DNA of 64,000 nucleotides from contig NZ_CP061538.1 in NCBI RefSeq assembly GCF_014705945.2, positions 1,302,001-1,366,000 on the forward strand, given 5' to 3'. Made by a program: the position numbers and the translations under genes. This DNA comes from Rothia amarae. Lineage in GTDB: Bacteria; Actinomycetota; Actinomycetes; Actinomycetales; Micrococcaceae. Position 1 is the first letter of the stretch. Each line of letters opens with the position of its first letter. Under the pieces are notes generated by a model. The model did no database searches. It saw only the letters and a program-made list of their open reading frames with translations, and had not been told where the DNA came from. Of the stretch, positions 1-13,208 are shown in pieces.

Positions 1-1863
1 GAGCCCAGTTGGTTCCAGGACTTCGACACTTCCTTGAGATTTCAGCACCAAATCCCAAATCCAAGCAGCTTCACCGTAGGCAATTTTGATGGTCTGAGAA
101 TCTTCATGAGCTACCTCTACAGTCGATTGATCAATCAGCGTCTTTAACTCAGGAGTCAATTCCTCCGCTATCTTGCACGTTGCAATGTTGCCCTGCTGTT
201 TCAAAGTTTCAATCCACTACTGGGGGTTAGGTTGAAGAGGCGTTGAATCTGCTGGGGGCGATGGACAGCTCACCCTGTGAATATCGCTGAGGCGATCTAC
301 TCTGAAAACACGCGGGGCCTGACGTTGAAAACAAAACCCCGAAAGATACGTAAATTCATGTTGTTGGAAGAGTTCATAAGGCTGAATTGTTCTCTTCTCT
401 ATCCGATTCCCCGCCCGATAGGTAGCCTCGATACACTGCCTCTCGCACAGGGCACGCTTCACCTCGGAGATATTGCCTTCTGGCGGGAAATAACTCAATG
501 AAGTATCCATCTGGGCTGCGCTATCGGTGATATCCCTCCAAAACTCACGGGTTGATTGAAACACCGATGCTTCAGACGAAGTAGATTCTAAGAATTTGAG
601 GACCAGTAGAACCAGAGCTTCTTCTTCCGGGGAAAAATTTATCTGATGTAATGCTTCCCCTACGCCCCTCACATACACACGATTCTTCTCAACCTCAATA
701 TCAAAAAGTGATCCGTCCAAATTGACCCAGAGAGTAGAGAGTCTTTTCTTGACCGTAGCAGGACTCACTCCTGTTCTGCGACTGAGCTCAGCGCACGTAA
801 TCCCCGGATTCTCCATGGCTAAATGAATAAGAGATATTAATTCCGCAACCAAAATATCGGTACTGGCGCGCAAACGGGCCTTAGGAGGTTCTCTAAAAGT
901 CAAACTTCCTACAGGGGGTTCCACGTCATAAGTACTCACCAGTCGTTTCAGAATAGATTTCTGTTCATCGTGTGCTACTTTTTGCTGGCGTGGGGAAAGC
1001 CTAAACTCATTAGACTCAACTTTGTCGATACCAGACAAAAATATGAGTTTCTGTTTGAAAGAGAGATAAAGAGCATCGTCTAAAGAATAGGCGGGAACCA
1101 CCCGAAGTTCGAACGTCTCAGATAAAGACCTCGCCACTAAACCAAGTGGTGCAACATCAGAAATCTTTTCTAAGGCTTCATCCATTGAAAAAGAATCCTG
1201 AGAAATATCTAATCCATCAACCCGCTCAAGATCTGACATCCGATCTAAACGGAATATCCGCGACTTTCCATCGATGCTCTGAGCACCAGCAACATACCAA
1301 CGACCAAAACGATTGCCTATCCCTTGCACATACATTTCACGCAGTGACTCGTCACCGTTCGGCCCCTGATAGAGAAACTGTAAACTCTGCTTTCGCGCCA
1401 AAGCACTCAACACTATTAACAAAGAATCCGGTGCTGAAAGCAACGAAGGCTGGGAACCAAAATAGGCCTCCGCACTCTTACGTGACCACCCCAATTTTGA
1501 CAGGACAGAATCTCCCAGCTTGTGAAAAGACCCGTTCCGCGCCACCAGCATCGCCCAAGCAATCATCAACACCGCTGAATCATTTGCCCGCATACGAGTG
1601 AGCCGATCTCTCACTTCGCTGGCATCCCGCTGTTTCAGCACGTAACGAAAGCTCACGCCGTCGTCATTGACAGAAGAATCAAGCAACCCAAGCCCGCGCA
1701 AAGTAGCTTTGTCTCGTTCAAACATCCGTTCAAAGGCTAAAACACTGGGAGCCTCCCGATATTCCTTCAAACTCCAACGGATATCATCGCGGCTCAGCCC
1801 CTTCGAACTCTTTGCCAACACATCAAAGAGTTGAAGTACCCGCTCCACTGCCTGTTTACTCAT
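1..1863 (-). pseudogene. pafBC: PafBC, fused WYL-domain DNA-damage regulator, split by an in-frame stop; runs off the window
   Basis: Fused PafB-PafC regulator. In actinobacteria PafBC activates the RecA/LexA-independent DNA damage response, and in Arthrobacter the two proteins are likewise one chain. Visible in order: winged HTH (residues 1-60), first WYL domain (about 145-220, GRWYVAG), first WCX region (about 245-310), second HTH (about 335-395) and second WYL domain (about 465-530, HEFTYLSGF). A TAG at 217-219 ends the frame after 548 residues. The same frame then stays open from 216 to the window edge and encodes a recognisable second WCX segment (TVEVAHEDSQTIKIAYGE, then AAWIWDLVL). The gene is therefore interrupted, not naturally ended. 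The ATG at 1861-1863 lies about 8 bases from the end of an IS element, so the native upstream region is displaced. Sequencing error, readthrough and genuine decay cannot be told apart here. Confidence 0.85.
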
Positions 1864-1871
1864 AAATACAA

Positions 1872-1914
1872 AGTAGCCCCCGAGGATCTGAACTGGCCCC
1901 CGAAAGTTGGACTG
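1872..1914. repeat. IS3 left terminal inverted repeat
   Basis: Starts AGTAGCCCCCGAGGAT and ends AGTTGGACTG. It matches the reverse complement of 3300-3341 over about 42 bases with one gap and a few mismatches in the centre. Confidence 0.85.
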
Positions 1915-1922
1915 GTTTTATT

Positions 1923-2675
1923 CTAGGCGGTTAGAGGCTTTAGGGTCTGGTTCCGGTATTGCATCGGAGTCAGGCCCTTGAGTCGTTTTTGGATGCGTTC
2001 ATGGTTGTACCAACGGATGTAGTCATCAATTGCGTGGTAGAACGTCTCCAGACTGGTGAATGATTCCCCGTGGTACATCTCTGATTTGAGGTGTCCGAAG
2101 AAGTTTTCCATTACCGCATTGTCGTAACAGTTTCCTTTCCTTGACATCGATTGTGTGCCACCGATAGCTGTGATGAGTGTGCGCCAGCTGGAATGTTGAT
2201 ATTGGAATCCTTGGTCGGTATGTACAAGCAAACCTTTATCTGGTGATTCTTGCGCGATGGCATCGCGTAAAGATTGCGACGTAAACGCCGTATTCGGTGA
2301 GGTTGAAATGCTGTACGACACGATCGACCGATCGCATAAGTCCATGATCGGCGACAGGTAGACCTTGGTGCCAGCAACGCGAAACTCCGTGACGTCACTT
2401 GCCCACACCGTATTTGGCTCATCAGGTGTGAAACATCGATTCAACACATTGCTTGCGATGTGACTTACCGTGCCTTTGTACGAGTTGTACTTCTTTTTCG
2501 CCCTGATCTTGGATTTAAGCCCTAGTTGATCCATGAGCTTGTAGACCAGCTTATGGTTGACCACCCATCCTTCCCGGCGTAGCTGAGCATGCACCCGCCG
2601 GTAACCATAACGACGGTTCATACGCTCAAAGACATCGACGATTGCCTGCTTGAGCTGGGCATGTTTATCAGCCAT
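1923..2675 (-). CDS. IS3-family transposase OrfB (DDE integrase core)
   Basis: Catalytic half of an IS3-family transposase. An HTH_21-like N-terminus (RRYGYRRVHAQL) is followed by an rve integrase core. The DDE triad is seen as WASDVTEF, VHTDQGFQYQ and, 35 residues later, ENFFGHLKSE. The C-terminus carries the usual YNHERIQKRLKGLTPMQYR. The ATG used here is internal to the functional product. The OrfB frame is open upstream to about 2820, and a -1 shift on the A7 run at 2816-2822 would join it to OrfA as OrfAB. Full length, with no internal stop. Confidence 0.9.
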   Translation of the reverse strand: MADKHAQLKQAIVDVFERMNRRYGYRRVHAQLRREGWVVNHKLVYKLMDQLGLKSKIRAKKKYNSYKGTVSHIASNVLNRCFTPDEPNTVWASDVTEFRVAGTKVYLSPIMDLCDRSIVSYSISTSPNTAFTSQSLRDAIAQESPDKGLLVHTDQGFQYQHSSWRTLITAIGGTQSMSRKGNCYDNAVMENFFGHLKSEMYHGESFTSLETFYHAIDDYIRWYNHERIQKRLKGLTPMQYRNQTLKPLTA

Positions 2676-2782
2676 GGTGAGGCGTTGTTGGTGATAGAAA
2701 AATGTTGACCGGGCAAGACCTGCCGCAACCAGTAGGTCCTCCAGGCGGTGGGCTGACTTGAGGATGACGATAGCTTCTACTT

Positions 2783-3280
2783 TCAGCCTCGTCGCTGGTT
2801 CCTCAAGTCCCGCAATTTTTTTAAGTACGCATTTTCTGCCCGTAGTTTCTCCACCTCTCGGCGGAGCCGATCTTCCTCGGTCAACGGTGTCGAGCGGGCG
2901 CTGCCTTTCGGTCGTCCCTTCGGTTTCGGCTGCAACGCTTCATCGCCACCCGCACGCCAAGCCCTCACCCAATTAGCGACAAGTTGATCCGATGACAAAC
3001 CAAACTCCCGAGCCAGTTCCATCTTGGACTGGCCGGCAATGAACCGATCGACGACTTCCTTCTTCACCTCGAAGGAAAAGTGCTGCTTAGTTGGTCTCTC
3101 CACAAGACATAGTCTGCCATGCAGCTTGAAACGACGCTCAAATCTCTTTACAGAATAGAGGCCAACTCCTAACCGATGAGCCGCTGCCGCATAGCCCAGC
3201 CCTTGCTCAAACAAATCAACGAGCTGCTCGCGCTGAGATTCACTCAAAGAACTTCGTGCTCTCAAAAAAATACTCCCCAC
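2783..3280 (-). CDS. IS3-family transposase OrfA (helix-turn-helix protein)
   Basis: DNA-binding part of the transposase, 165 residues, GTG start. Two helix-turn-helix repeats are visible: LVDLFEQGLGYAAAAHRLGV and ELAREFGLSSDQLVANWVRA. A leucine-zipper-like end follows (LRREVEKLRAENAYLKKL), as in IS3/IS150 OrfA proteins. The frame ends at 2783, 37 bases after the A7 run at 2816-2822, where ribosomes are expected to slip by -1 to make OrfAB. Confidence 0.88.
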   Translation of the reverse strand: MGSIFLRARSSLSESQREQLVDLFEQGLGYAAAAHRLGVGLYSVKRFERRFKLHGRLCLVERPTKQHFSFEVKKEVVDRFIAGQSKMELAREFGLSSDQLVANWVRAWRAGGDEALQPKPKGRPKGSARSTPLTEEDRLRREVEKLRAENAYLKKLRDLRNQRRG

Positions 3281-3299
3281 TAGTTAGAAACTGATTTCT

Positions 3300-3341
3300 C
3301 AGTCCAACTAATGGGGAGCAGTTCAATCCTCGGGGGCTACT
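3300..3341. repeat. IS3 right terminal inverted repeat
   Basis: Reads CAGTCCAACT at its inner end and ATCCTCGGGGGCTACT at its outer end. It is the partner of the repeat at 1872-1914. The outer 16 bases are perfect except for a one-base gap further in. Confidence 0.85.
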
Positions 3342-3360
3342 ATTCATCGCGCTAGGCGAA

Positions 3361-3759
3361 TTACTTTTTTACATCTAGAAGGTCGACAACGAAGATAAGA
3401 GCTTCATTAGGCGCAATTGCTGCACCGGCGCCGCGCTCGCCATAGGCCATCTCAGAAGGGATTTCCAGACGACGGCGGCCGCCTACTTTCATTCCCAACA
3501 GACCCTGATCCCAGCCCTGGATAACCTGACCGATACCTACGCGGAATGCCAAGGGCTCTCCGCGGTTCCAGGAGGAATCAAATTCTTCACCGGTGGAAAA
3601 TGCCACGCCCACGTAGTGGCAAGAAATCTGATCGCCAGCAGCTACGGCTTCGCCAGATCCTTCGATTTCATCAATAATCTTGAGGTCTTCAGGTACTCCA
3701 CCCTCAGGGAAATCAATTTCAGGCTTTGTACGATCTAACTTACGCTGACCAAAGGACAT
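3361..3759 (-). CDS. FKBP-type peptidyl-prolyl cis-trans isomerase, cytosolic
   Basis: Single-domain FKBP prolyl isomerase of 132 residues. No signal peptide, so it should act in the cytosol. The core runs from about residue 35 to the end. FKBP signature residues are visible: HYVGVAFSTGEEFDSSW, VIQGWDQGLLGMKVGGRR, IPSEMAYGERGAG and LIFVVDLLDV. It lies 33 bases downstream of a second, exported FKBP gene on the same strand and is the last intact gene before the IS element. Related genera also place FKBP genes between pafA and pafBC. The substrates are unknown. Confidence 0.92.
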   Translation of the reverse strand: MSFGQRKLDRTKPEIDFPEGGVPEDLKIIDEIEGSGEAVAAGDQISCHYVGVAFSTGEEFDSSWNRGEPLAFRVGIGQVIQGWDQGLLGMKVGGRRRLEIPSEMAYGERGAGAAIAPNEALIFVVDLLDVKK

Positions 3760-3792
3760 AGTTTTCTTCTTTCTGTTTAGAGGTGGGAAGTA

Positions 3793-4881
3793 TTATTTAC
3801 CGGACTCGGTTGAAGTAGGCTGAGCCGAAGTGGTGGGCTCTGCCGATTCAGCAGCTGGTGAGGCGCTAGGGCTGGCAGACGCCGAACCGGAAGCACTGGC
3901 AGAGGGAGACTGCATGCTTGCGGCAGCCTGAGGATTATCGCTAGCCCCCAAAATATCAACAACGAAGACAAGTGGACCGCTGGGAGCGTTCTCGCCGGCG
4001 TCCTTACCGTAGGCCAAATCTTCAGGAATGATGAGTAGAACGCGTGAACCAACCGTCTTGCCCTCTAGACCCTGAGTCCAACCCTTGATGACGCCCTGCA
4101 GATTGAGCTCGGCGGGGGTTCCATCAAAGTTACCGTCGAACGCTTTGCCGTCTTCCCAGCGCACGCCCTGGTACTTGACGTACAAGGTATCGGAAGCTTT
4201 AACTTTCTCACCCTTGCCCTTAATCATGTCCTGGGAAACAAGTTCCTTTGGAGCATCTCCGCGATCAGCCTTCAGCTTCAACTCTGCCTTGCCGTCGTCG
4301 CCTACCTTGAAAGATTCTAGAGCCGAATTGAGATCCTTTTGAGGAGTTTCATCACCGGTTGCATTTTCTAGCAGCTTGCTCTTGATGGTATAGACCTCAA
4401 CGTTTGCAGGGGTGTCTTCAGCTGCCTCAGAAGCGCTGGGGCTACCGCTGGCATCCGCACTGGGAACCATGTTGGAGGTATAAGAGAAGCTGGTACCCAC
4501 CTTCGATGAAGTCAAAACATCGTACAGCTCGGGAGCAGTTTTTTTCAGATCCTCACCCACAGGAATCAAGATGGGTGACTGAGCGTAGGTACTACCTACC
4601 TTTGAGCCGTCGTCACCCTTGAATACAGTTGCCTCGATGAGAAGGTTGTCGCCATCCTTAATCTCTTCGCCATCGCCCTCTTCAATCACGTGGGTTGACG
4701 TTTCATCTGTAGTGAAGGGGGTCTGGAATGAAACCGAGGGCTCAGCGGTCGCATCATTGAGAGAATATTGGACATCGTCCAATGACGAGCTGGATCCGGA
4801 GCATGCAGCTAGCGCTAGCGTAAGTACAGCTCCGGTTGCTACTACAAAAATTTTCTTCTGCAAATCGAACTTCTTTCTCAT
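3793..4881 (-). CDS. FKBP-type prolyl isomerase lipoprotein
   Basis: Exported lipoprotein of 362 residues. It has a basic N-terminus and hydrophobic stretch followed by the lipobox LAAC (ALTLALAACSGS). I chose the ATG at 4879-4881 because it places this signal peptide at the N-terminus; an upstream in-frame start would overlap the end of pafA. A complete FKBP domain occupies about residues 225-320 (GVIKGWTQGLEGKTVGSR, IPEDLAYGKDAG, LVFVVDILG). The first half (about 65-190) looks like a second, degenerate FKBP domain: it retains DGDNLLIEATVFKGDDG but has a poor active site. The last 40 residues are a Ser/Ala/Pro/Thr-rich tail. Likely role: folding of exported proteins at the outer face of the membrane. 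Confidence 0.88.
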   Translation of the reverse strand: MRKKFDLQKKIFVVATGAVLTLALAACSGSSSSLDDVQYSLNDATAEPSVSFQTPFTTDETSTHVIEEGDGEEIKDGDNLLIEATVFKGDDGSKVGSTYAQSPILIPVGEDLKKTAPELYDVLTSSKVGTSFSYTSNMVPSADASGSPSASEAAEDTPANVEVYTIKSKLLENATGDETPQKDLNSALESFKVGDDGKAELKLKADRGDAPKELVSQDMIKGKGEKVKASDTLYVKYQGVRWEDGKAFDGNFDGTPAELNLQGVIKGWTQGLEGKTVGSRVLLIIPEDLAYGKDAGENAPSGPLVFVVDILGASDNPQAAASMQSPSASASGSASASPSASPAAESAEPTTSAQPTSTESGK

Positions 4882-4942
4882 GATTACGGTTCTGAATCTA
4901 ATGTGCAATGGTAACGCAAGATGCGGAGGAAAACCCTCAACT

Positions 4943-6382
4943 TTAGATGAAAGGCGGCATCCATTCCTGCGTTTTTTGAGCTCCCAGCAGATCAATTAAC
5001 TGCTTGACCGTCGAGTCCTCGGTAGCGAACGGATCCTTACATACTGCGTTCAATTGAGGTTTGTTGTTGAGCCTTAAATGTACCCAGTCAACGGTGGTGG
5101 GTTCTCCTGCCCTATGTGCGGCCTGAATAAAACTACCTCGAATTTTCGCTCTAGTTTCAGGTGGTTGCAACGTAGCTTTTTCAACAGCACCGGGGTCAAT
5201 CACACGACGGGCACGCCCTGCTTTTTGTAGCACGTTAAAGACGCCGCGGTCAGGGTCGATGCTGTGATAAGCCAAATCTAGTTGCTGGATTCGAGAATCC
5301 GCATAATCTTTAGCACCACGCGCTATATAAGAATCTAAAAGTTTTTTCTTGATAGCCCAGTCAATTTCGGTATCGATACCCGAAATGTCCTGTGTTTCCA
5401 CCGCAATCAAAGCTCTGTTCCATAAATCCAAAATATAAGGAACATCTGCATGGTGTGCACCTGCATCAGCTATATACTTCTGAGCTGCTCGCAAATAGTT
5501 GCGTTGCAACTCCAGAGCATTCTTGTAGGAGCCATCTGCCAACTCAAATCGTGTAGTGCCTGTGAGATCGTGCGACACCGTGCGCAGGGCATTCGCTGTG
5601 TCCTTTATTTCGAAGTTTTCCAGTGGAAAATGATCTTCCAGCATGCGAAGGATAATGTCTGTTGCGCCAATTTTTAGGAGGGTGGTTGTCTCAGACATAT
5701 TGGAATCACCGTTGATGACGTGCATCCGGCGATATTGGTTGGGGTCGGCGTGTGGCTCATCGCGGGTATTGATAAGTGGACGAGATCGAGTAGTTGCAGT
5801 AGAGGCGTCCTCCCAGATGTAATCCGCCCTTTGGGAAAATGAGAAACTTGGCGTACCGTGTTTTTTATCCTGCCCGGTGAGAGGTCTCCATGCTTCGGGG
5901 CCGTGCGGATGCGTTTTACCTGCTCCCACCATGATCTGGCGAGTCATCAAAAAAGGGATGAGGGAACGGACGAGCTTTGAAAATTCCACTCGCCGTTCAA
6001 GCATGTAATTCTCGTGGGATCCGAATGAGTTCCCCGCTGAATCAACATTATTTTTAAACAGGTAGAAAGTTCCCTCTTTGCCCTCCGCTTCGATGCTGTC
6101 TTGGGCTTGGTTCAGTAAATCCGCAAAAAGTAGCTCCCCCGCCTTATCTTGGGCAATGAGATCACGTAATGTTGCCGATTCAGCGGTGGCGTATTCGGGA
6201 TGAGACCCGACATCCAGGTACAGGCGGGAACCGTTGGGGAGAAAAACGTTTGTTGAACGCCATGACTCCACCACGGGCTTGAATAAGATACGAGCTGCTT
6301 CTTCAGGACCAATCGGACCTAATGAAGAGGGTACGTAGGTAATACCAAATTCAGTTTCAATACCAAAAATTCTCTTTTTCAC
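4943..6382 (-). CDS. pafA: Pup-protein ligase PafA
   Basis: Joins the C-terminal glutamate of Pup to substrate lysines using ATP. A carboxylate-amine ligase-fold protein of 479 residues, slightly longer than the usual 450. Visible motifs: GIETEFG at the N-terminus with the metal/ATP glutamate, the catalytic aspartate in YLDVGSHPEYATAES, FKNNVDSAGNSFGSHENY, RSRPLINTRDEPHAD and NMSETTTLLKIG. The start is GTG at 6380-6382. The gene begins 42 bases after the pup stop codon. In relatives with a proteasome, prcB and prcA lie between these genes; here nothing does. No catalytic residue appears to be missing. Confidence 0.96.
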   Translation of the reverse strand: MKKRIFGIETEFGITYVPSSLGPIGPEEAARILFKPVVESWRSTNVFLPNGSRLYLDVGSHPEYATAESATLRDLIAQDKAGELLFADLLNQAQDSIEAEGKEGTFYLFKNNVDSAGNSFGSHENYMLERRVEFSKLVRSLIPFLMTRQIMVGAGKTHPHGPEAWRPLTGQDKKHGTPSFSFSQRADYIWEDASTATTRSRPLINTRDEPHADPNQYRRMHVINGDSNMSETTTLLKIGATDIILRMLEDHFPLENFEIKDTANALRTVSHDLTGTTRFELADGSYKNALELQRNYLRAAQKYIADAGAHHADVPYILDLWNRALIAVETQDISGIDTEIDWAIKKKLLDSYIARGAKDYADSRIQQLDLAYHSIDPDRGVFNVLQKAGRARRVIDPGAVEKATLQPPETRAKIRGSFIQAAHRAGEPTTVDWVHLRLNNKPQLNAVCKDPFATEDSTVKQLIDLLGAQKTQEWMPPFI

Positions 6383-6424
6383 AGCTCATAATCTCTTTCG
6401 GTTGCCTGGGAACTAGGGAGCAGT

Positions 6425-6625
6425 TTATTGACCGCCTTTTTGCACAAAACCCTTCACGAAATCTTCTGCATTCTCTTCAAGCAAGCCATCGATTTCTGCG
6501 AGTAAATCATCTGTTTCACCCAATAGTTCTTGATTGACCTCAGAATTTTGTTGAGCAATCGAAATCTCGTCCTGGTCCGTAGCGTTTTGCTGCTGGTGCT
6601 GTTGCTGAATTTGTTCGCGCTTCAT
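6425..6625 (-). CDS. pup: Prokaryotic ubiquitin-like protein Pup
   Basis: Small protein modifier of 66 residues. The N-terminus is Gln-rich and presumably disordered (MKREQIQQQHQQQ). The central part is predicted to be helical and contacts ARC, PafA and Dop (ELLGETDDLLAEIDGLLEEN). The C-terminus is FVKGFVQKGGQ. Ending in Gln means it must be deamidated by Dop before PafA can use it, consistent with dop being directly upstream: the dop stop is 2 bases from the pup start. Normal length for the family (60-70 residues). Confidence 0.96.
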   Translation of the reverse strand: MKREQIQQQHQQQNATDQDEISIAQQNSEVNQELLGETDDLLAEIDGLLEENAEDFVKGFVQKGGQ

Positions 6626-6627
6626 AA

Positions 6628-8217
6628 TTATTTCTCCTTCTGTACGTTGTTAAGGGACTCAATGACCTCAACCGCCGTGGGACTGTTGAGGACTTGCTGC
6701 GTCTGCTCGGCAGTAAACGCCGACGGATTATCCATGGTGAGACGGTGAACTTCCGTCTGCAATTGGTTACGCGCTACAACGGTATCCCAATTCACGCTGA
6801 TTAGCTCCTCGGGCCAGCGCTTGATGAACTCACCGCGCAAATAGGCGCGAGTATTCTCCGGTGCATGACGCGCGGCGTCGGCTATTTCTTCAGGGGAGAA
6901 GAGAATCTGCATCCTGCCTAGTTCAACCAGTTTAAAGTACAGGCCTTTTTGAGGTCTGATGTCTGAATATTGGATGTCCAAAGCCGCAAGCTTAGGGTTG
7001 TCCCATCCGATGCCCTGGGCCACGTACTGACGCATCAAAGAATATTTAGCCACCCAGTCCAGACGATTGGCGAGGGAGAAGAGGTTGGTTTCCAAGGCAT
7101 CGAGGACTTCATTCCACAGCGAGATAACCTGATCGGTTTCTTCATCGACACCCGAGAAATATTCTTCTGCCGCCTCCAAGTACTCTCTCTGAATCTGAAG
7201 AGCGGTTACCTCTCCCCCGCTGCTGAGAGCTATTTTTTCGGACAGAGTTAAATCGTGGCTCACCGTATGCATGGCATGAACAGGATCAGCCAACACAATA
7301 TGAGGTGCCACCCCCTTCTCGATGAGGGCAAGAACCAAAGACGTAGTACCGAATTTGAGAAGATTCGAAACATGGGAAAGGTTGGCATCCCCGGTAATCA
7401 CGTGTAGACGGCGGAATCGCTCAGAATCTGCATGGGGCTCATCTCGGGTATTGATAAGAGGACGACGGATGGTAGTCTCCAGCCCCACTTCGCGCTCAAA
7501 GAAGTCGGCGCGCTGAGAAATTTGGAACCCAGCAGTTTCGCCCTTCGTGCCGATACCTACGCGGCCTGCTCCGGTCATAATGATGCGAGTGGCAAAAAAG
7601 GGAAGAAGTCCCTGGATGACGTCGTCGAAATCAGTGTCCCTGCTCATTTGGTAGTTCTCGTGGCTACCGTACGACTGCCCCTTGGAGTCCGTGTTGTTTT
7701 TGTAAAGGTTGATAGTCTCTAGCACCGGCGAGTCTGCCGAACGTTGGACTACCTGAGCAGCAATCCAATCACCGGCGGCGTCCCATTTAACGGCGTCCAT
7801 CGGTGAGGCGACCTCAGGTGAAGAATACTCGGGGTGAGCGTGGTCTACGTAGAGTCGAGCTCCGTTGGGCAGGATGGAGTTCATAGTGACCGCATCCCAA
7901 TTCAACCGTTCCGCATACAACCCTGAATCCTGCAGTGCCTCAGCAGCGATTTGCTCACTGGTGAGAACATTAGCCTGGTGGGTGAGCTGAGTCACATGAG
8001 CATCTTTTTCAGGGATCTCAGTGCCTCGTGAATCGCTCAGCGGAGACTCCGAGGAATATCCCCATTCAGCGGTTGAATGTGCCTGCAATTCTGCGTGAAA
8101 CAGCGAATCATAGGTGCTCACTACCTGAGCTGAAAGTACAGTAGGATTCGCCGAAAGGTTGCCGGGCGCTAGTACGCCAAACTCAGTCTCTGCTCCCATA
8201 ATGCGACGAACGCTCAT
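6628..8217 (-). CDS. dop: Pup deamidase/depupylase Dop
   Basis: Converts the C-terminal Gln of Pup to Glu and removes Pup from tagged proteins. Homologous to PafA, 529 residues. Seen: MGAETEFGV at the N-terminus, the nucleophilic-aspartate motif LYVDHAHPEYSSPE, KNNTDSKGQSYGSHENYQ, QRADFFEREVG and RRPLINTRDEPHAD. The stretch at residues 36-85 corresponds to the Dop-specific loop absent from PafA, which distinguishes the two paralogues. The ATG overlaps the arc stop codon by one base (TAATG), so translation is probably coupled. Pup follows after 2 bases. Confidence 0.95.
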   Translation of the reverse strand: MSVRRIMGAETEFGVLAPGNLSANPTVLSAQVVSTYDSLFHAELQAHSTAEWGYSSESPLSDSRGTEIPEKDAHVTQLTHQANVLTSEQIAAEALQDSGLYAERLNWDAVTMNSILPNGARLYVDHAHPEYSSPEVASPMDAVKWDAAGDWIAAQVVQRSADSPVLETINLYKNNTDSKGQSYGSHENYQMSRDTDFDDVIQGLLPFFATRIIMTGAGRVGIGTKGETAGFQISQRADFFEREVGLETTIRRPLINTRDEPHADSERFRRLHVITGDANLSHVSNLLKFGTTSLVLALIEKGVAPHIVLADPVHAMHTVSHDLTLSEKIALSSGGEVTALQIQREYLEAAEEYFSGVDEETDQVISLWNEVLDALETNLFSLANRLDWVAKYSLMRQYVAQGIGWDNPKLAALDIQYSDIRPQKGLYFKLVELGRMQILFSPEEIADAARHAPENTRAYLRGEFIKRWPEELISVNWDTVVARNQLQTEVHRLTMDNPSAFTAEQTQQVLNSPTAVEVIESLNNVQKEK

Positions 8218-9914
8218 TATGCACGTCCCCTTTCACCGGAGAATTTGTTGGAAACCGGCAAAATATTGGCTATGGGCTGACGGATATTTTTGCTTGCCAG
8301 GACGTCCTCCACTTCAGCCATCTGAGGTACCTCAACTTGGTCTTCAAACTCGGCTCGGACTGCTTCCTGCAAGTGCTCAAAACGGATACCTGGTTCCCCG
8401 ATATCCAGCTGATCTTTGATGGCAAATTTTTTGGCGGCATCCACGATATTACGAATCACCGCACCAGAGAGAAAATCTCCCCGATAAAGCAACTGGAAAG
8501 TGCCGTGGGAGAATTCCACCTGCACATAGCGGTTTTCGTCAGTGGTAGCAAAGAGTGCCTCAGTGATTTCATGATTCATTGCTGCAACAGCTGCCTGAGA
8601 CGAGCCAAAGCGGTCAATCACGGACGAATGTAGAGGCAAAGACTCGTTGAGATACAAGCCAAATATCTCTTCGGTCCCCAGCCGATCTGGTCGATTGACC
8701 CGAATCTTGATGTCCAAACGTCCCGGTCTTAAGACAGCGGGATCAATCATATCTTCCCGGTTCGTTGCACCAATGACGATGACATTATCAAGTGCTTCCA
8801 CACCATCGATTTCTGATAGCAACTGCGGCACGATGGTGGTCTCCACGTCGGAGCTTCGTCCGCTACCGCGCGTGCGGAAAAGAGATTCCATCTCATCGAA
8901 GAAAACCACCACGGGGTTTCCTTCTTCAGCCTTTTGACGCGCAGCGGTAAAGATATCGCGGATCTGCCGTTCCGTCTCCCCCACGTACTTGTCCAATAGC
9001 TCGGGACCCTTAATATTCAAAAAGTATCCCGTGCGCTTCTGCCCCGGATGCAAGGCCTCTATACGAGCCGCCAGTGAGTTCGCCACAGCTTTAGCAATGA
9101 GAGTCTTACCGTTGCCGGGAGGGCCGTACAACAAAATACCCTTGGGCGGGGTGAGATTGTAGACGCGAAAAATCTCAGGGTGCAAAAATGGCAGCTCAAC
9201 GGCGTCTTGAATCTGGCCAATTTGAGTACTCAGTCCACCGATATTGGCATAACTGATGTCGGGAACTTTTTCCAGTACCAGCTCTTGGGCATCGTTCGTT
9301 GGTACAAGACCGGTAATCATCCCAATCCTTGAATCATAGGTAACGGTGTCACCCAGGGTAAGCGATGAAGCGTTCAGATTCTCTGAAATACGCACCACGC
9401 TTTTTACCTGATTAGGCATATCAACCACAGCGCGGGAATCATCCAAAATTTCTCGGATAGTCACAACCTCACCCAAGGATTCAAAGCCTAAGCTCAAAAC
9501 GGCTTGAGTCTGATCATTCAGCAGAACGGTCATACCCGGTTTCACCTGCCCAATTTTCAACAGCGGTGAGCAGGTAATGCGCACGCGCCGACCGGAGAGC
9601 ATAACATCGAGGTATTCTTCCAACTCGGCAGGAGTCTTTCCCTCCGCCAAGTCGTCATAGGTCATACCCCCGGTATGTACGTCAAGGACTGTCGCAGTGT
9701 TGAGCGGAGGAGTAACTTCCTGGGAAAGAGCTAGTCTGAGATTCTCAATTTCAGCTTTAGTCTTTTCTAACGCAGTCACCAGTTTCTGATTGCGCTCGCT
9801 AGCTACACGCAATTGACGGTCAAGATTTCTCCGACCCTCATTTGCGACATTCAGCTGGCGCAAAATACGTTCAAAATCCTGCGCAGAAACATTCTTCTCA
9901 GCTTGCTCTGACAT
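8217..9914 (-). CDS. arc: AAA ATPase ARC/Mpa, Pup-recognising unfoldase
   Basis: Hexameric AAA ATPase that binds Pup through its N-terminal coiled coil and unfolds tagged proteins. 565 residues from the ATG at 9912-9914, chosen because AGGAGG lies just upstream; an in-frame ATG at 9935 precedes that SD. Order: coiled coil (about 10-65), tandem OB-like domains (about 75-230), and AAA module with Walker A GPPGNGKT near residue 265 and Walker B VVVFFDEMESLF. The C-terminus (ILPVSNKFSGERGRA) lacks the GQYL-type tail that Mpa uses to dock on and open the 20S proteasome. That fits the absence of prcBA. The protein may act as a free-standing unfoldase or with another protease. Confidence 0.95.
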   Translation of the reverse strand: MSEQAEKNVSAQDFERILRQLNVANEGRRNLDRQLRVASERNQKLVTALEKTKAEIENLRLALSQEVTPPLNTATVLDVHTGGMTYDDLAEGKTPAELEEYLDVMLSGRRVRITCSPLLKIGQVKPGMTVLLNDQTQAVLSLGFESLGEVVTIREILDDSRAVVDMPNQVKSVVRISENLNASSLTLGDTVTYDSRIGMITGLVPTNDAQELVLEKVPDISYANIGGLSTQIGQIQDAVELPFLHPEIFRVYNLTPPKGILLYGPPGNGKTLIAKAVANSLAARIEALHPGQKRTGYFLNIKGPELLDKYVGETERQIRDIFTAARQKAEEGNPVVVFFDEMESLFRTRGSGRSSDVETTIVPQLLSEIDGVEALDNVIVIGATNREDMIDPAVLRPGRLDIKIRVNRPDRLGTEEIFGLYLNESLPLHSSVIDRFGSSQAAVAAMNHEITEALFATTDENRYVQVEFSHGTFQLLYRGDFLSGAVIRNIVDAAKKFAIKDQLDIGEPGIRFEHLQEAVRAEFEDQVEVPQMAEVEDVLASKNIRQPIANILPVSNKFSGERGRA

Positions 9915-9953
9915 GCTCTCCTCCTCGTTCTTCATGTTCTTCGCGGGTAGAGC

Positions 9954-10973
9954 CTATTCGCTCTCGTGGGCTGCCTCTGTTGAAATAGCTGATTTCTCCG
10001 CAAGGTTTAGCGCATCTTTGGCTGCTCGGCGTAGTTTGCGATCAGACACATTGCGCTCGCCCAGAGCCGCGGGCGACCAGGCATTCATGTCTTCTTGAGA
10101 AAATTCGGTTTTCGACGCGCGGCGCTTGGGAGCCAGGCGGACGGCACCGTCAGCCAGTCTTCGAGCAGTAATCAGAAATCCAGTGTGGGCAACCATGCGG
10201 TGGTCTGGGCGTACAGCAAGACCTTCCACATGCCATCCACGAACCATCGTTTCGTGGGATTCTGGCTCGGTAAAACGTCCGTCAGCGCGTAAAGCTTCAG
10301 CGGTACGGGAAAGCTGGGTCACGGTGGCTACATAACAGATGATCACGCCACCGGGGGCAAGTGCTGTTGCCACGGCGTCGATGCACTCCCAGGGGGCGAG
10401 CATATCTAAGACGGCGCGATCCACAGAGGCAGGTTCTTCGACCTCGCCCAGGGTTTCTGCAAGATCGCCCAAAGTGATTTCCCATGCGGGGTGCGGTCCG
10501 CCAAACATGGTTTCTACATTTCCTCGCGCAATTTCTGCAAACTCTTCACGTCGTTCGAAGGAACGCAGATGCCCGAAATCACCGATAGCTCGCAATAGCG
10601 AAATTGAGAGCGCGCCCGAACCGACGCCGGCCTCGATGACACGCGCGCCTGGGAAAATATCCGCCATGGTTACAATCTGACCGGCGTCTTTGGGATAAAC
10701 AACGGCTGCGCCACGAGGCATCGACAGAACAAAGTCCCGGTAAAGAGGGCGCATTGTCTGAATTTTCAGACCTTCTGAATTCTCGATGACCGTGCCTTCA
10801 GGGGCACCAATCAATTCATCATGTTTGAAGTATCCCCGATGGGAATGGTACTCCCCGCCAGCAGCCAGCGTGATTGTTGAAATTTTGCCACGTTCGTCGG
10901 TGAGCTGCACTCGCTCCCCTATACGGAAAGGTCCCCGACGATTGATGCTGCCGGTGGGTGTGTAATTCTGCAT
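9954..10973 (-). CDS. trmI: tRNA (adenine-58-N1) methyltransferase TrmI
   Basis: Methylates A58 in the T-loop of tRNA using S-adenosylmethionine. 339 residues. An N-terminal beta domain (residues 1-70, RIGERVQLTDERG) is followed by a Rossmann methyltransferase fold. The SAM-binding loop is VIEAGVGSGALSISLLRA, followed by acidic motif II around LRSFERREEF and a motif IV-like VLDMLAPWE. A C-terminal tail of about 50 residues is rich in charged residues. It lies 39 bases upstream of arc on the same strand, its conserved position in actinobacterial pupylation loci. It is probably the first gene of that operon. Confidence 0.93.
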   Translation of the reverse strand: MQNYTPTGSINRRGPFRIGERVQLTDERGKISTITLAAGGEYHSHRGYFKHDELIGAPEGTVIENSEGLKIQTMRPLYRDFVLSMPRGAAVVYPKDAGQIVTMADIFPGARVIEAGVGSGALSISLLRAIGDFGHLRSFERREEFAEIARGNVETMFGGPHPAWEITLGDLAETLGEVEEPASVDRAVLDMLAPWECIDAVATALAPGGVIICYVATVTQLSRTAEALRADGRFTEPESHETMVRGWHVEGLAVRPDHRMVAHTGFLITARRLADGAVRLAPKRRASKTEFSQEDMNAWSPAALGERNVSDRKLRRAAKDALNLAEKSAISTEAAHESE

Positions 10974-12332: not shown

Positions 12333-13208
12333 GTGTCTTTTGCTAATCATTTTCCAGAAAACCTTTTTTCCCAGTCCTCCTCTGATGATTCGGGGTACAC
12401 CACGGTAATGCTGTGCGCATTTGAAGGTTGGAATGACGCCGGCTCGGCAGCAACAGAAACCCTGACCTACCTGGAAAGAATATATTCTGCACAGGAACTT
12501 TCTGGTTTTGAAAGCGAAGATTTCTATGACTTCACCACTAACCGTCCCCTCCTCATTTCGCAGGACGACGGAACCGGTCAAATCACCTGGCCGTCAATTT
12601 CTATGCATCGTTGGACGGACGAGAGTCGCCGCATACATTTCATCACAGTGACAGGTCCTGAACCACAGCTCAAATGGCATACATTTGTGGCTGCCTTAAT
12701 GGGCGCAGCGCGCGAGTTTGGCGTCGACCACATCGTCTTGCTGGGCGCTTTGCTAGCCGAAGTGCCCCACACTCAAGTATTTCCGGTCAACGTCACTAGC
12801 TATTCCCCGACACTGCGAGAGAACGATAGGGTTCATCAGCAGTCCTACACCGGCCCCACGGGCATCATTGGTGTACTGGCTCATACTGCTCGTCAATATG
12901 GAATCTCAGATCTTTCGCTCTGGGTTTCGATTCCTCACTATGCTGGGCACCCACCGCACCCCAAAGCCACATTGGAACTGCTTCGCGGCATAGAATCACT
13001 CTTTTCACTAGCAATTCCCCTGCGCACCATTGAAGAAGAAACACTTGCGTGGGAACGCGGTGCAGCAGAACTCATGGAAGAAGAACCCGAACTCGCCGCT
13101 TACGTCAAGCAGCTTGAATCCGATCAAGAAAATTCATCTCTGGAAAATATGTCGGGTGAAGATATAGCGGCCGAATTCGAGCGCTTTCTTAAAAGACGAG
13201 ACGGTTAA
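12333..13208 (+). CDS. PAC2 family protein
   Basis: Protein of the PAC2 family (named after eukaryotic proteasome assembly chaperone 2), 291 residues, GTG start. Visible family features: CAFEGWNDAGSAATETLTYL near the N-terminus, IVLLGALLAEVPHT in the middle, and GPTGIIGVLAHTARQYG followed by LWVSIPHYAGHPPHPKATL. The last 50 residues are acidic and helical. In many actinobacteria a PAC2 gene lies close to the proteasome/pupylation genes. Here it remains although the proteasome core genes are absent from the locus. Its biochemical role in bacteria is not established. It converges on mshC across a shared terminator. Confidence 0.88.
   Translation: MSFANHFPENLFSQSSSDDSGYTTVMLCAFEGWNDAGSAATETLTYLERIYSAQELSGFESEDFYDFTTNRPLLISQDDGTGQITWPSISMHRWTDESRRIHFITVTGPEPQLKWHTFVAALMGAAREFGVDHIVLLGALLAEVPHTQVFPVNVTSYSPTLRENDRVHQQSYTGPTGIIGVLAHTARQYGISDLSLWVSIPHYAGHPPHPKATLELLRGIESLFSLAIPLRTIEEETLAWERGAAELMEEEPELAAYVKQLESDQENSSLENMSGEDIAAEFERFLKRRDG

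Follow-up and report, generated by a model that had tools for sequence, protein, structure and literature searches.

What does pupylation do in a cell that has Pup and its enzymes and no 20S proteasome? The question is raised by the window, the whole stretch of 64,000 nucleotides of Rothia amarae DNA analysed here. Its minus strand contains, from 217 to 10973, a standard actinobacterial Pup locus consisting of trmI, arc, dop, pup, pafA, two FKBP genes and a pafBC fusion, as follows.

9954..10973, minus strand: TrmI-type tRNA methyltransferase, the usual gene upstream of arc (PF14801, PF08704)
8217..9914, minus strand: ARC, Mpa-type AAA ATPase, 565 aa (PF00004, PF16450, PF17758)
6628..8217, minus strand: Dop, Pup deamidase/depupylase (PF03136)
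6425..6625, minus strand: Pup, 66 aa, ending in GGQ (PF05639, E 3e-18)
6383..6424, no strand: spacer of 42 bp between pup and pafA, the site of prcB and prcA in relatives
4943..6382, minus strand: PafA, Pup ligase, GTG start (PF03136)
3793..4881, minus strand: FKBP-type prolyl isomerase 1, a usual neighbour of pafA, ATG at 4881 (PF00254; the Pfam query started at 4887, two codons upstream of this ATG)
3361..3759, minus strand: FKBP-type prolyl isomerase 2 (PF00254)
2783..3280 and 1923..2675: open reading frames of an IS3-type element (within 1872..3341)
217..1863, minus strand: PafBC fusion (HTH_PafC and WYL), the end of the usual locus (PF13280, PF19187)

The preliminary description of this DNA held that Pup, Dop, PafA and ARC are intact and that only 42 bases separate pup from pafA. 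Both statements are borne out, the latter by the coordinates and the former by four open reading frames, their Pfam matches and alignment to solved structures. The start of dop overlaps the stop of arc by 1 nt, and 2 bp lie between dop and pup. ARC may instead start at an in-frame ATG at 9935, upstream of the start listed.

The IS3-type element cuts pafBC off from the second FKBP gene; its label was assigned by judgement, without a family search. It has imperfect 26-nt end repeats (1889-1914 and 3300-3325) and is flanked almost exactly by two perfectly complementary 16-nt arms (1872-1887 and 3326-3341), perhaps the two halves of a hairpin, which may have been a terminator after FKBP2. On the opposite strand near the Pup operon, at 12333-13208, there is a gene of the PAC2 family. 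This family bears the name of a proteasome assembly chaperone, and the genome has no proteasome match.

PafA aligns over most of its length with the solved PafA 4b0t (E 6e-129), and Dop with the solved Dop structures 5lrt and 4b0r (E 3e-133). Both enzymes of the window contain the aspartate of the shared motif NG[SA]RLY[LV]D, to which we assign a presumed catalytic role. PafA keeps the Asp of NGSRLYLDVGSHPEY, where the deposited 4bjr chain has Asn, and in Dop both the Asp of NGARLYVDHAHPEY and the loop region are conserved. Compared with solved Dop, about 26 extra residues follow the Dop-loop region (query 82-110 against chain 77-79). Pup ends in GGQ and must be deamidated by Dop. Two genomes of the window's genus (G002 and G307, loci L020 and L021) have a Pup ending in GGE and not GGQ, and thus Dop would there serve depupylation only. 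ARC aligns with Mpa 5kwa through the OB and AAA parts (E 3e-145), with no alignment beyond residue 537 of 565.

The closest named matches of the window PafA, among the 120 of 268 listed, come from Rothia (81, 80 and 72% identity), followed by more Rothia and Kocuria. For the 15 relatives from the window's genus the best named PafA match is always Rothia, with identities reaching 100% for R. kristinae and 99.8% for R. uropygioeca; for all seven genomes of genus g5 it is Kocuria, with up to 99.4%. Judged by these PafA matches, the genus of the window (g1) is Rothia, and its sister genus g5 is Kocuria.

The absence of prcB and prcA, claimed from the locus, extends to the whole genome (2,483,880 bases, 0.06% contamination). 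The proteasome family PF00227 has no match there, whereas 10 of 14 control genomes were matched. Since PF00227 failed to detect the divergent PrcA of genome G093, the search was repeated with a PrcA profile derived from seven members of the family. The profile found PrcA in all seven prcBA-positive genomes, five of which had contributed rows to it, leaving G015 and G025 as independent controls. It gave no match in any of the 35 genomes of the window's genus, that of the window included (three of the 35 are less than 90% complete, with 87, 72 and 65), and none in seven genomes of Kocuria. A genome-wide search for PrcA and PrcB homologues had been set beforehand as the refuting test, and neither gene was found. 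That prcBA are present and were missed, in an assembly gap or through divergence, is hardly conceivable. Indeed, the assembly is in 4 contigs and PF00227 did overlook the PrcA of G093, giving one match only where the PrcA profile found the protein. However, estimated completeness is 100%, and both searches are empty in this genome and in the genus.

The proteasome activator Bpa (PF10759) had no match in the window genome in a search whose 14 controls were mute; the same profile matched 20 of 67 relatives. CDC48_N, used as a proxy for Cpa, was matched in none of 43 genomes, prcBA-positive ones included.

The family sample comprises 395 genomes, of which 373 are good, meaning a completeness of 90% or more and a contamination of 5% or less. 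PF00227 is matched in 239 of them (232 of the good ones) and in 19 of 32 genera, including four of the nine genomes of genus g21 and none of the 35 of the window's genus. The Pup ligase is matched in 394 genomes and in every good one, 141 of the latter having no PF00227 match; the single genome without a ligase match (G067) is 82% complete. Each of the 35 genomes of the window's genus has at least two matches of the Pup ligase family. At the strict cut-off PafA was not matched in genome G029, and G345 (89% complete), whose locus lacks pup, prcBA and pafA together, was left out of the counts.

The pup locus was read in 78 relatives chosen to represent genera, 27 with prcBA and 51 without; within the window's genus full loci were read in 15 relatives and the window. 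In 26 of the 27 positive relatives prcBA lie in a gap of 570-1656 bp between pup and pafA; the remaining one (G167) has pup and prcBA on separate contigs. In 50 of the 51 negative relatives the gap is at most 73 bp, several values being negative because the called reading frames start too early, and in the last it is 272 bp and contains a prcBA remnant. Nine outgroups were picked for having prcB, which occurs in 73 of 119 genomes of the order sample. ARC was not called in two of the nine outgroup loci and PafA in three, and these loci were left out of the reading of ARC ends and gene order; the six loci that include pafA have prcBA between pup and pafA.

The earlier proposal that prcBA were lost from this locus is supported by the number of genera that retain a proteasome match and by the position of prcBA in those read and in the outgroups. 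It is also supported by a tree of RpoC and RpoB (rpoBC; 60 family genomes and nine outgroups), on which Rothia and Kocuria form one prcBA-negative clade with one common loss. The family distribution was expected to show how often the loss arose. With regain excluded, there were 12 losses on the best rpoBC tree and nine after collapsing branches with ultrafast bootstrap below 95. In a free tree of ARC, Dop and PafA, long branches joined genera g10, g11 and g13 to outgroup G399, in conflict with the rpoBC tree; this is possibly a long-branch effect, and the tree was not used for counting.

The number of losses would be overstated if the loss were older and shared and genera g2 and g21 had since reacquired prcBA by transfer. 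On the rpoBC tree they are placed among prcBA-negative genera, and their PrcBA proteins form a long branch that is attached with poor support (77.7/37). On the other hand, the PrcBA of g2 and g21 are sisters (100/100), their hosts form a clade together with the prcBA-negative genome G016 (99.7/99), and wherever the locus is readable (G001, G093, G110, G155) the genes are found at their ancestral site, with pup on one side and pafA on the other. We thus regard regain as a rather doubtful explanation.

The loss of prcBA is accompanied by changes at the end of ARC. In genera where ARC and the proteasome are coupled, the ARC tail (a stretch of 24 residues not shown here, ...GQYL) is nearly invariant. 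ARC ends in GQYL in 22 of 27 prcBA-positive relatives read versus one of 51 prcBA-negative ones. Eighty named prcB loci formed a separate set (the best 80 of 197 relatives); 53 of its 54 readable ARC ends are GQYL, the sole exception being Enteractinococcus helveticum. Six of the seven outgroup ends read are also GQYL; the seventh, from G399 (family f6, locus L182), belongs to a genome with prcBA. The window ARC has no GQYL tail and ends in ...SNKFSGERGRA. When ten genomes of the genus are compared, that of the window among them, identity is 81% in the AAA core and 23% over the final 25 residues; the tail of the window ARC is eroded beyond recognition, and the ten genomes share no replacement motif. 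The tails of other proteasome-less genera differ again. Low identity of the tail beside high identity of the core is as expected if only the docking tail of ARC lost its job.

One possibility is that ARC hands pupylated proteins to another peptidase, such as ClpP1P2, and that pupylation is still a degradation signal. ARC does keep its AAA core and OB domains, and the cell must clear unfolded products somehow. However, no motif is shared by the tails within the genus, those outside it are different again, and the consulted parts of the literature on proteasome-less Pup systems report no such partner of ARC, so that we consider it unlikely. The preliminary description had left open whether pupylation works here without a protease or with a different one. 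The former fits better, since no motif is common to the ARC tails; ARC may still dock on another protease via a surface other than the tail.

Bpa follows a similar pattern. It was found in 19 of 22 genomes with both prcBA and a GQYL tail (not in G015, G025 and G053), in none of five genomes with prcBA and no GQYL tail, one of them only 71% complete, and in one of 40 genomes without prcBA.

Several relatives seem to be at half-dismantled stages. In G008 (genus g8; locus L057, 5519-5785) a reading frame of 88 aa lies between pup and pafA. Its start resembles the N-terminus of PrcB, weakly (best E 0.002 among the matches listed), and its end matches the C-terminus of PrcA (E 4e-8 with tblastn, 5e-4 with the profile). 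It is probably a prcB-prcA remnant, as left by one internal deletion. The ARC of this genome still ends in GQYL and a shorter Bpa match remains, and on this evidence the protease is the part lost first.

The opposite situation was observed in G001 (genus g2; locus L196, 4319-9409) and in four genomes of g21 (loci L039, L071, L073 and L075), two of which were matched by sequence to Enteractinococcus records. All five keep prcBA, their ARC has no GQYL tail, and the profile search gave no Bpa match. Their PrcB proteins keep the stretches TTI, GDRR and EKVF, which we take to have active-site roles. For pairs of g21 genomes prcB and prcA give dN/dS values of about 0.04-0.11, synonymous sites being in part close to saturation; these values exceed that of pafA in the same pairs where it is computable (about 0.03). 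Purifying selection on prcBA is shown for Enteractinococcus (g21) only, g2 being without such a measure. The PrcBA proteins of g2 and g21 share a long stem. In these two genera the coupling between ARC and the 20S proteasome is, as read from the genes, the part lost first. Finally, G077 of genus g26 has neither prcBA nor GQYL nor Bpa, and five examined congeners keep all three.

The locus can be compared with known systems. In the order trmI-arc-dop-pup-...-pafA-FKBP-FKBP-pafBC it is the same as that of prcBA-positive genomes of the family, and so resembles the canonical Pup-20S systems of Mycobacterium, Streptomyces and the Arthrobacter type, but it differs from them in having no prcB, prcA, ARC GQYL tail or Bpa. 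Kocuria belongs to the same family, is prcBA-negative and shares one loss with the window, PafA of g5 being up to 99% identical to that of named Kocuria; in contrast to the eroded tail of the window, g5 retains a recognisable tail block of ARC (for example NTTNPEDWARISGRR). The loss in Corynebacterium is a separate one, in another suborder. Kocuria rhizophila and Micrococcus luteus are presumably shown without prcBA where they have been compared. Legends in PMC4254994 and PMC6017811 name both species among the compared genomes, and a legend in PMC8223512 names M. luteus.

The closest likeness outside the family is to Corynebacterium. The claim that corynebacteria show the same state is in print: in the part of PMC3511204 used here, they are described as keeping the pupylation and ATPase genes, with prcBA missing, pup directly before pafA and the ATPase without the C-terminal docking motif, and proteasome-less members as showing greater variation. 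The window likewise has intact pup, dop, pafA and arc, no prcA or prcB match genome-wide, pup directly preceding pafA and an ARC without the C-terminal proteasome-interaction motif. Bpa, too, was not found in its genome, as would be expected of a proteasome-less system. A difference is that Pup ends in GGQ in the window and in Glu in C. glutamicum (PMC3511204). As far as that excerpt goes, a proteasome-less Pup locus, the adjacency of pup and pafA and the missing ARC motif were already described by 2012. Excerpts of PMC12288473 give ARC, Pup, PafA and Dop as present in C. glutamicum and the core subunits as absent, and in this species ARC takes pupylated ferritin apart in a non-degradative manner, without a proteasome (PMC8223512, PMC12288473). 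Bpa is said in PMC8223512 to co-occur strictly with the proteasome, and exceptions in Propionibacterium acnes and Leptospirillum ferrooxidans were already given in PMC4254994, again as far as the portions consulted go. Judged by our profile searches, strict co-occurrence does not hold in the present family. In the literature sources available to us, a genome survey was the only item found on Rothia and pupylation, and an unrelated gut study the only one on Enteractinococcus and the proteasome.

prcB and prcA were probably deleted in the common ancestor of Rothia and Kocuria, leaving pupylation as a reversible tag and ARC as a free-standing unfoldase; the role of ARC is proposed as published for C. 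glutamicum. Dop would turn Pup-Gln into Pup-Glu and PafA would attach Pup-Glu to lysines. ARC would then hold on to the Pup helix and dismantle tagged proteins or complexes, none of which would pass to a 20S particle. Dop would subsequently remove Pup, and the freed subunits would refold, be reused or go to general proteases. A plausible target, as in C. glutamicum, would be ferritin-type iron stores. The window genome has two ferritin-family genes. This family is represented by at least one gene in all 16 genomes tested in the genus, but also in all 14 controls, and thus its presence supports little.

The Pup system could also be decaying and no longer functional. It has lost its usual protease, and the ratio of root-to-tip distances of the Pup enzymes to those of rpoBC is high in the window, 4.52 versus 2.06-4.38 in prcBA-positive genomes. 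However, the ratios of prcBA-negative genomes (2.82-5.68) overlap those of positive ones and the values are not independent, and for this reason faster evolution of the Pup enzymes after the loss was considered and is not claimed. Moreover, the Pup ligase is kept in all good family genomes, the compared motifs of PafA, Dop and ARC are preserved, the AAA core of ARC is conserved within the genus, and the system was retained through 9-12 losses of prcBA. Decay is thus a very improbable explanation, and a reversible tag read by a free-standing ARC remains the preferred one.

A tentative order of events, possible rather than probable, may be proposed for the family. In the clade with g2 and g21, the GQYL tail and Bpa would have been lost first, making ARC a free unfoldase; the 20S proteasome would have been retained without a known docking activator, and prcBA then deleted several times. 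In other lines, such as that of G008, prcBA would have gone first. Tagging would thus part from degradation before the proteasome is lost, and the window would represent the final stage of a repeated freeing of Pup from degradation. The finding bears on the role of Pup when it is not a death tag, for which C. glutamicum is the worked example in the portions of the literature consulted. Because this family contains sister species in both states as well as intermediate stages, the question becomes accessible to comparative tests: which proteins stay targets of pupylation without degradation, and what an apparently undocked 20S proteasome, under purifying selection where this is measurable (g21), still does.
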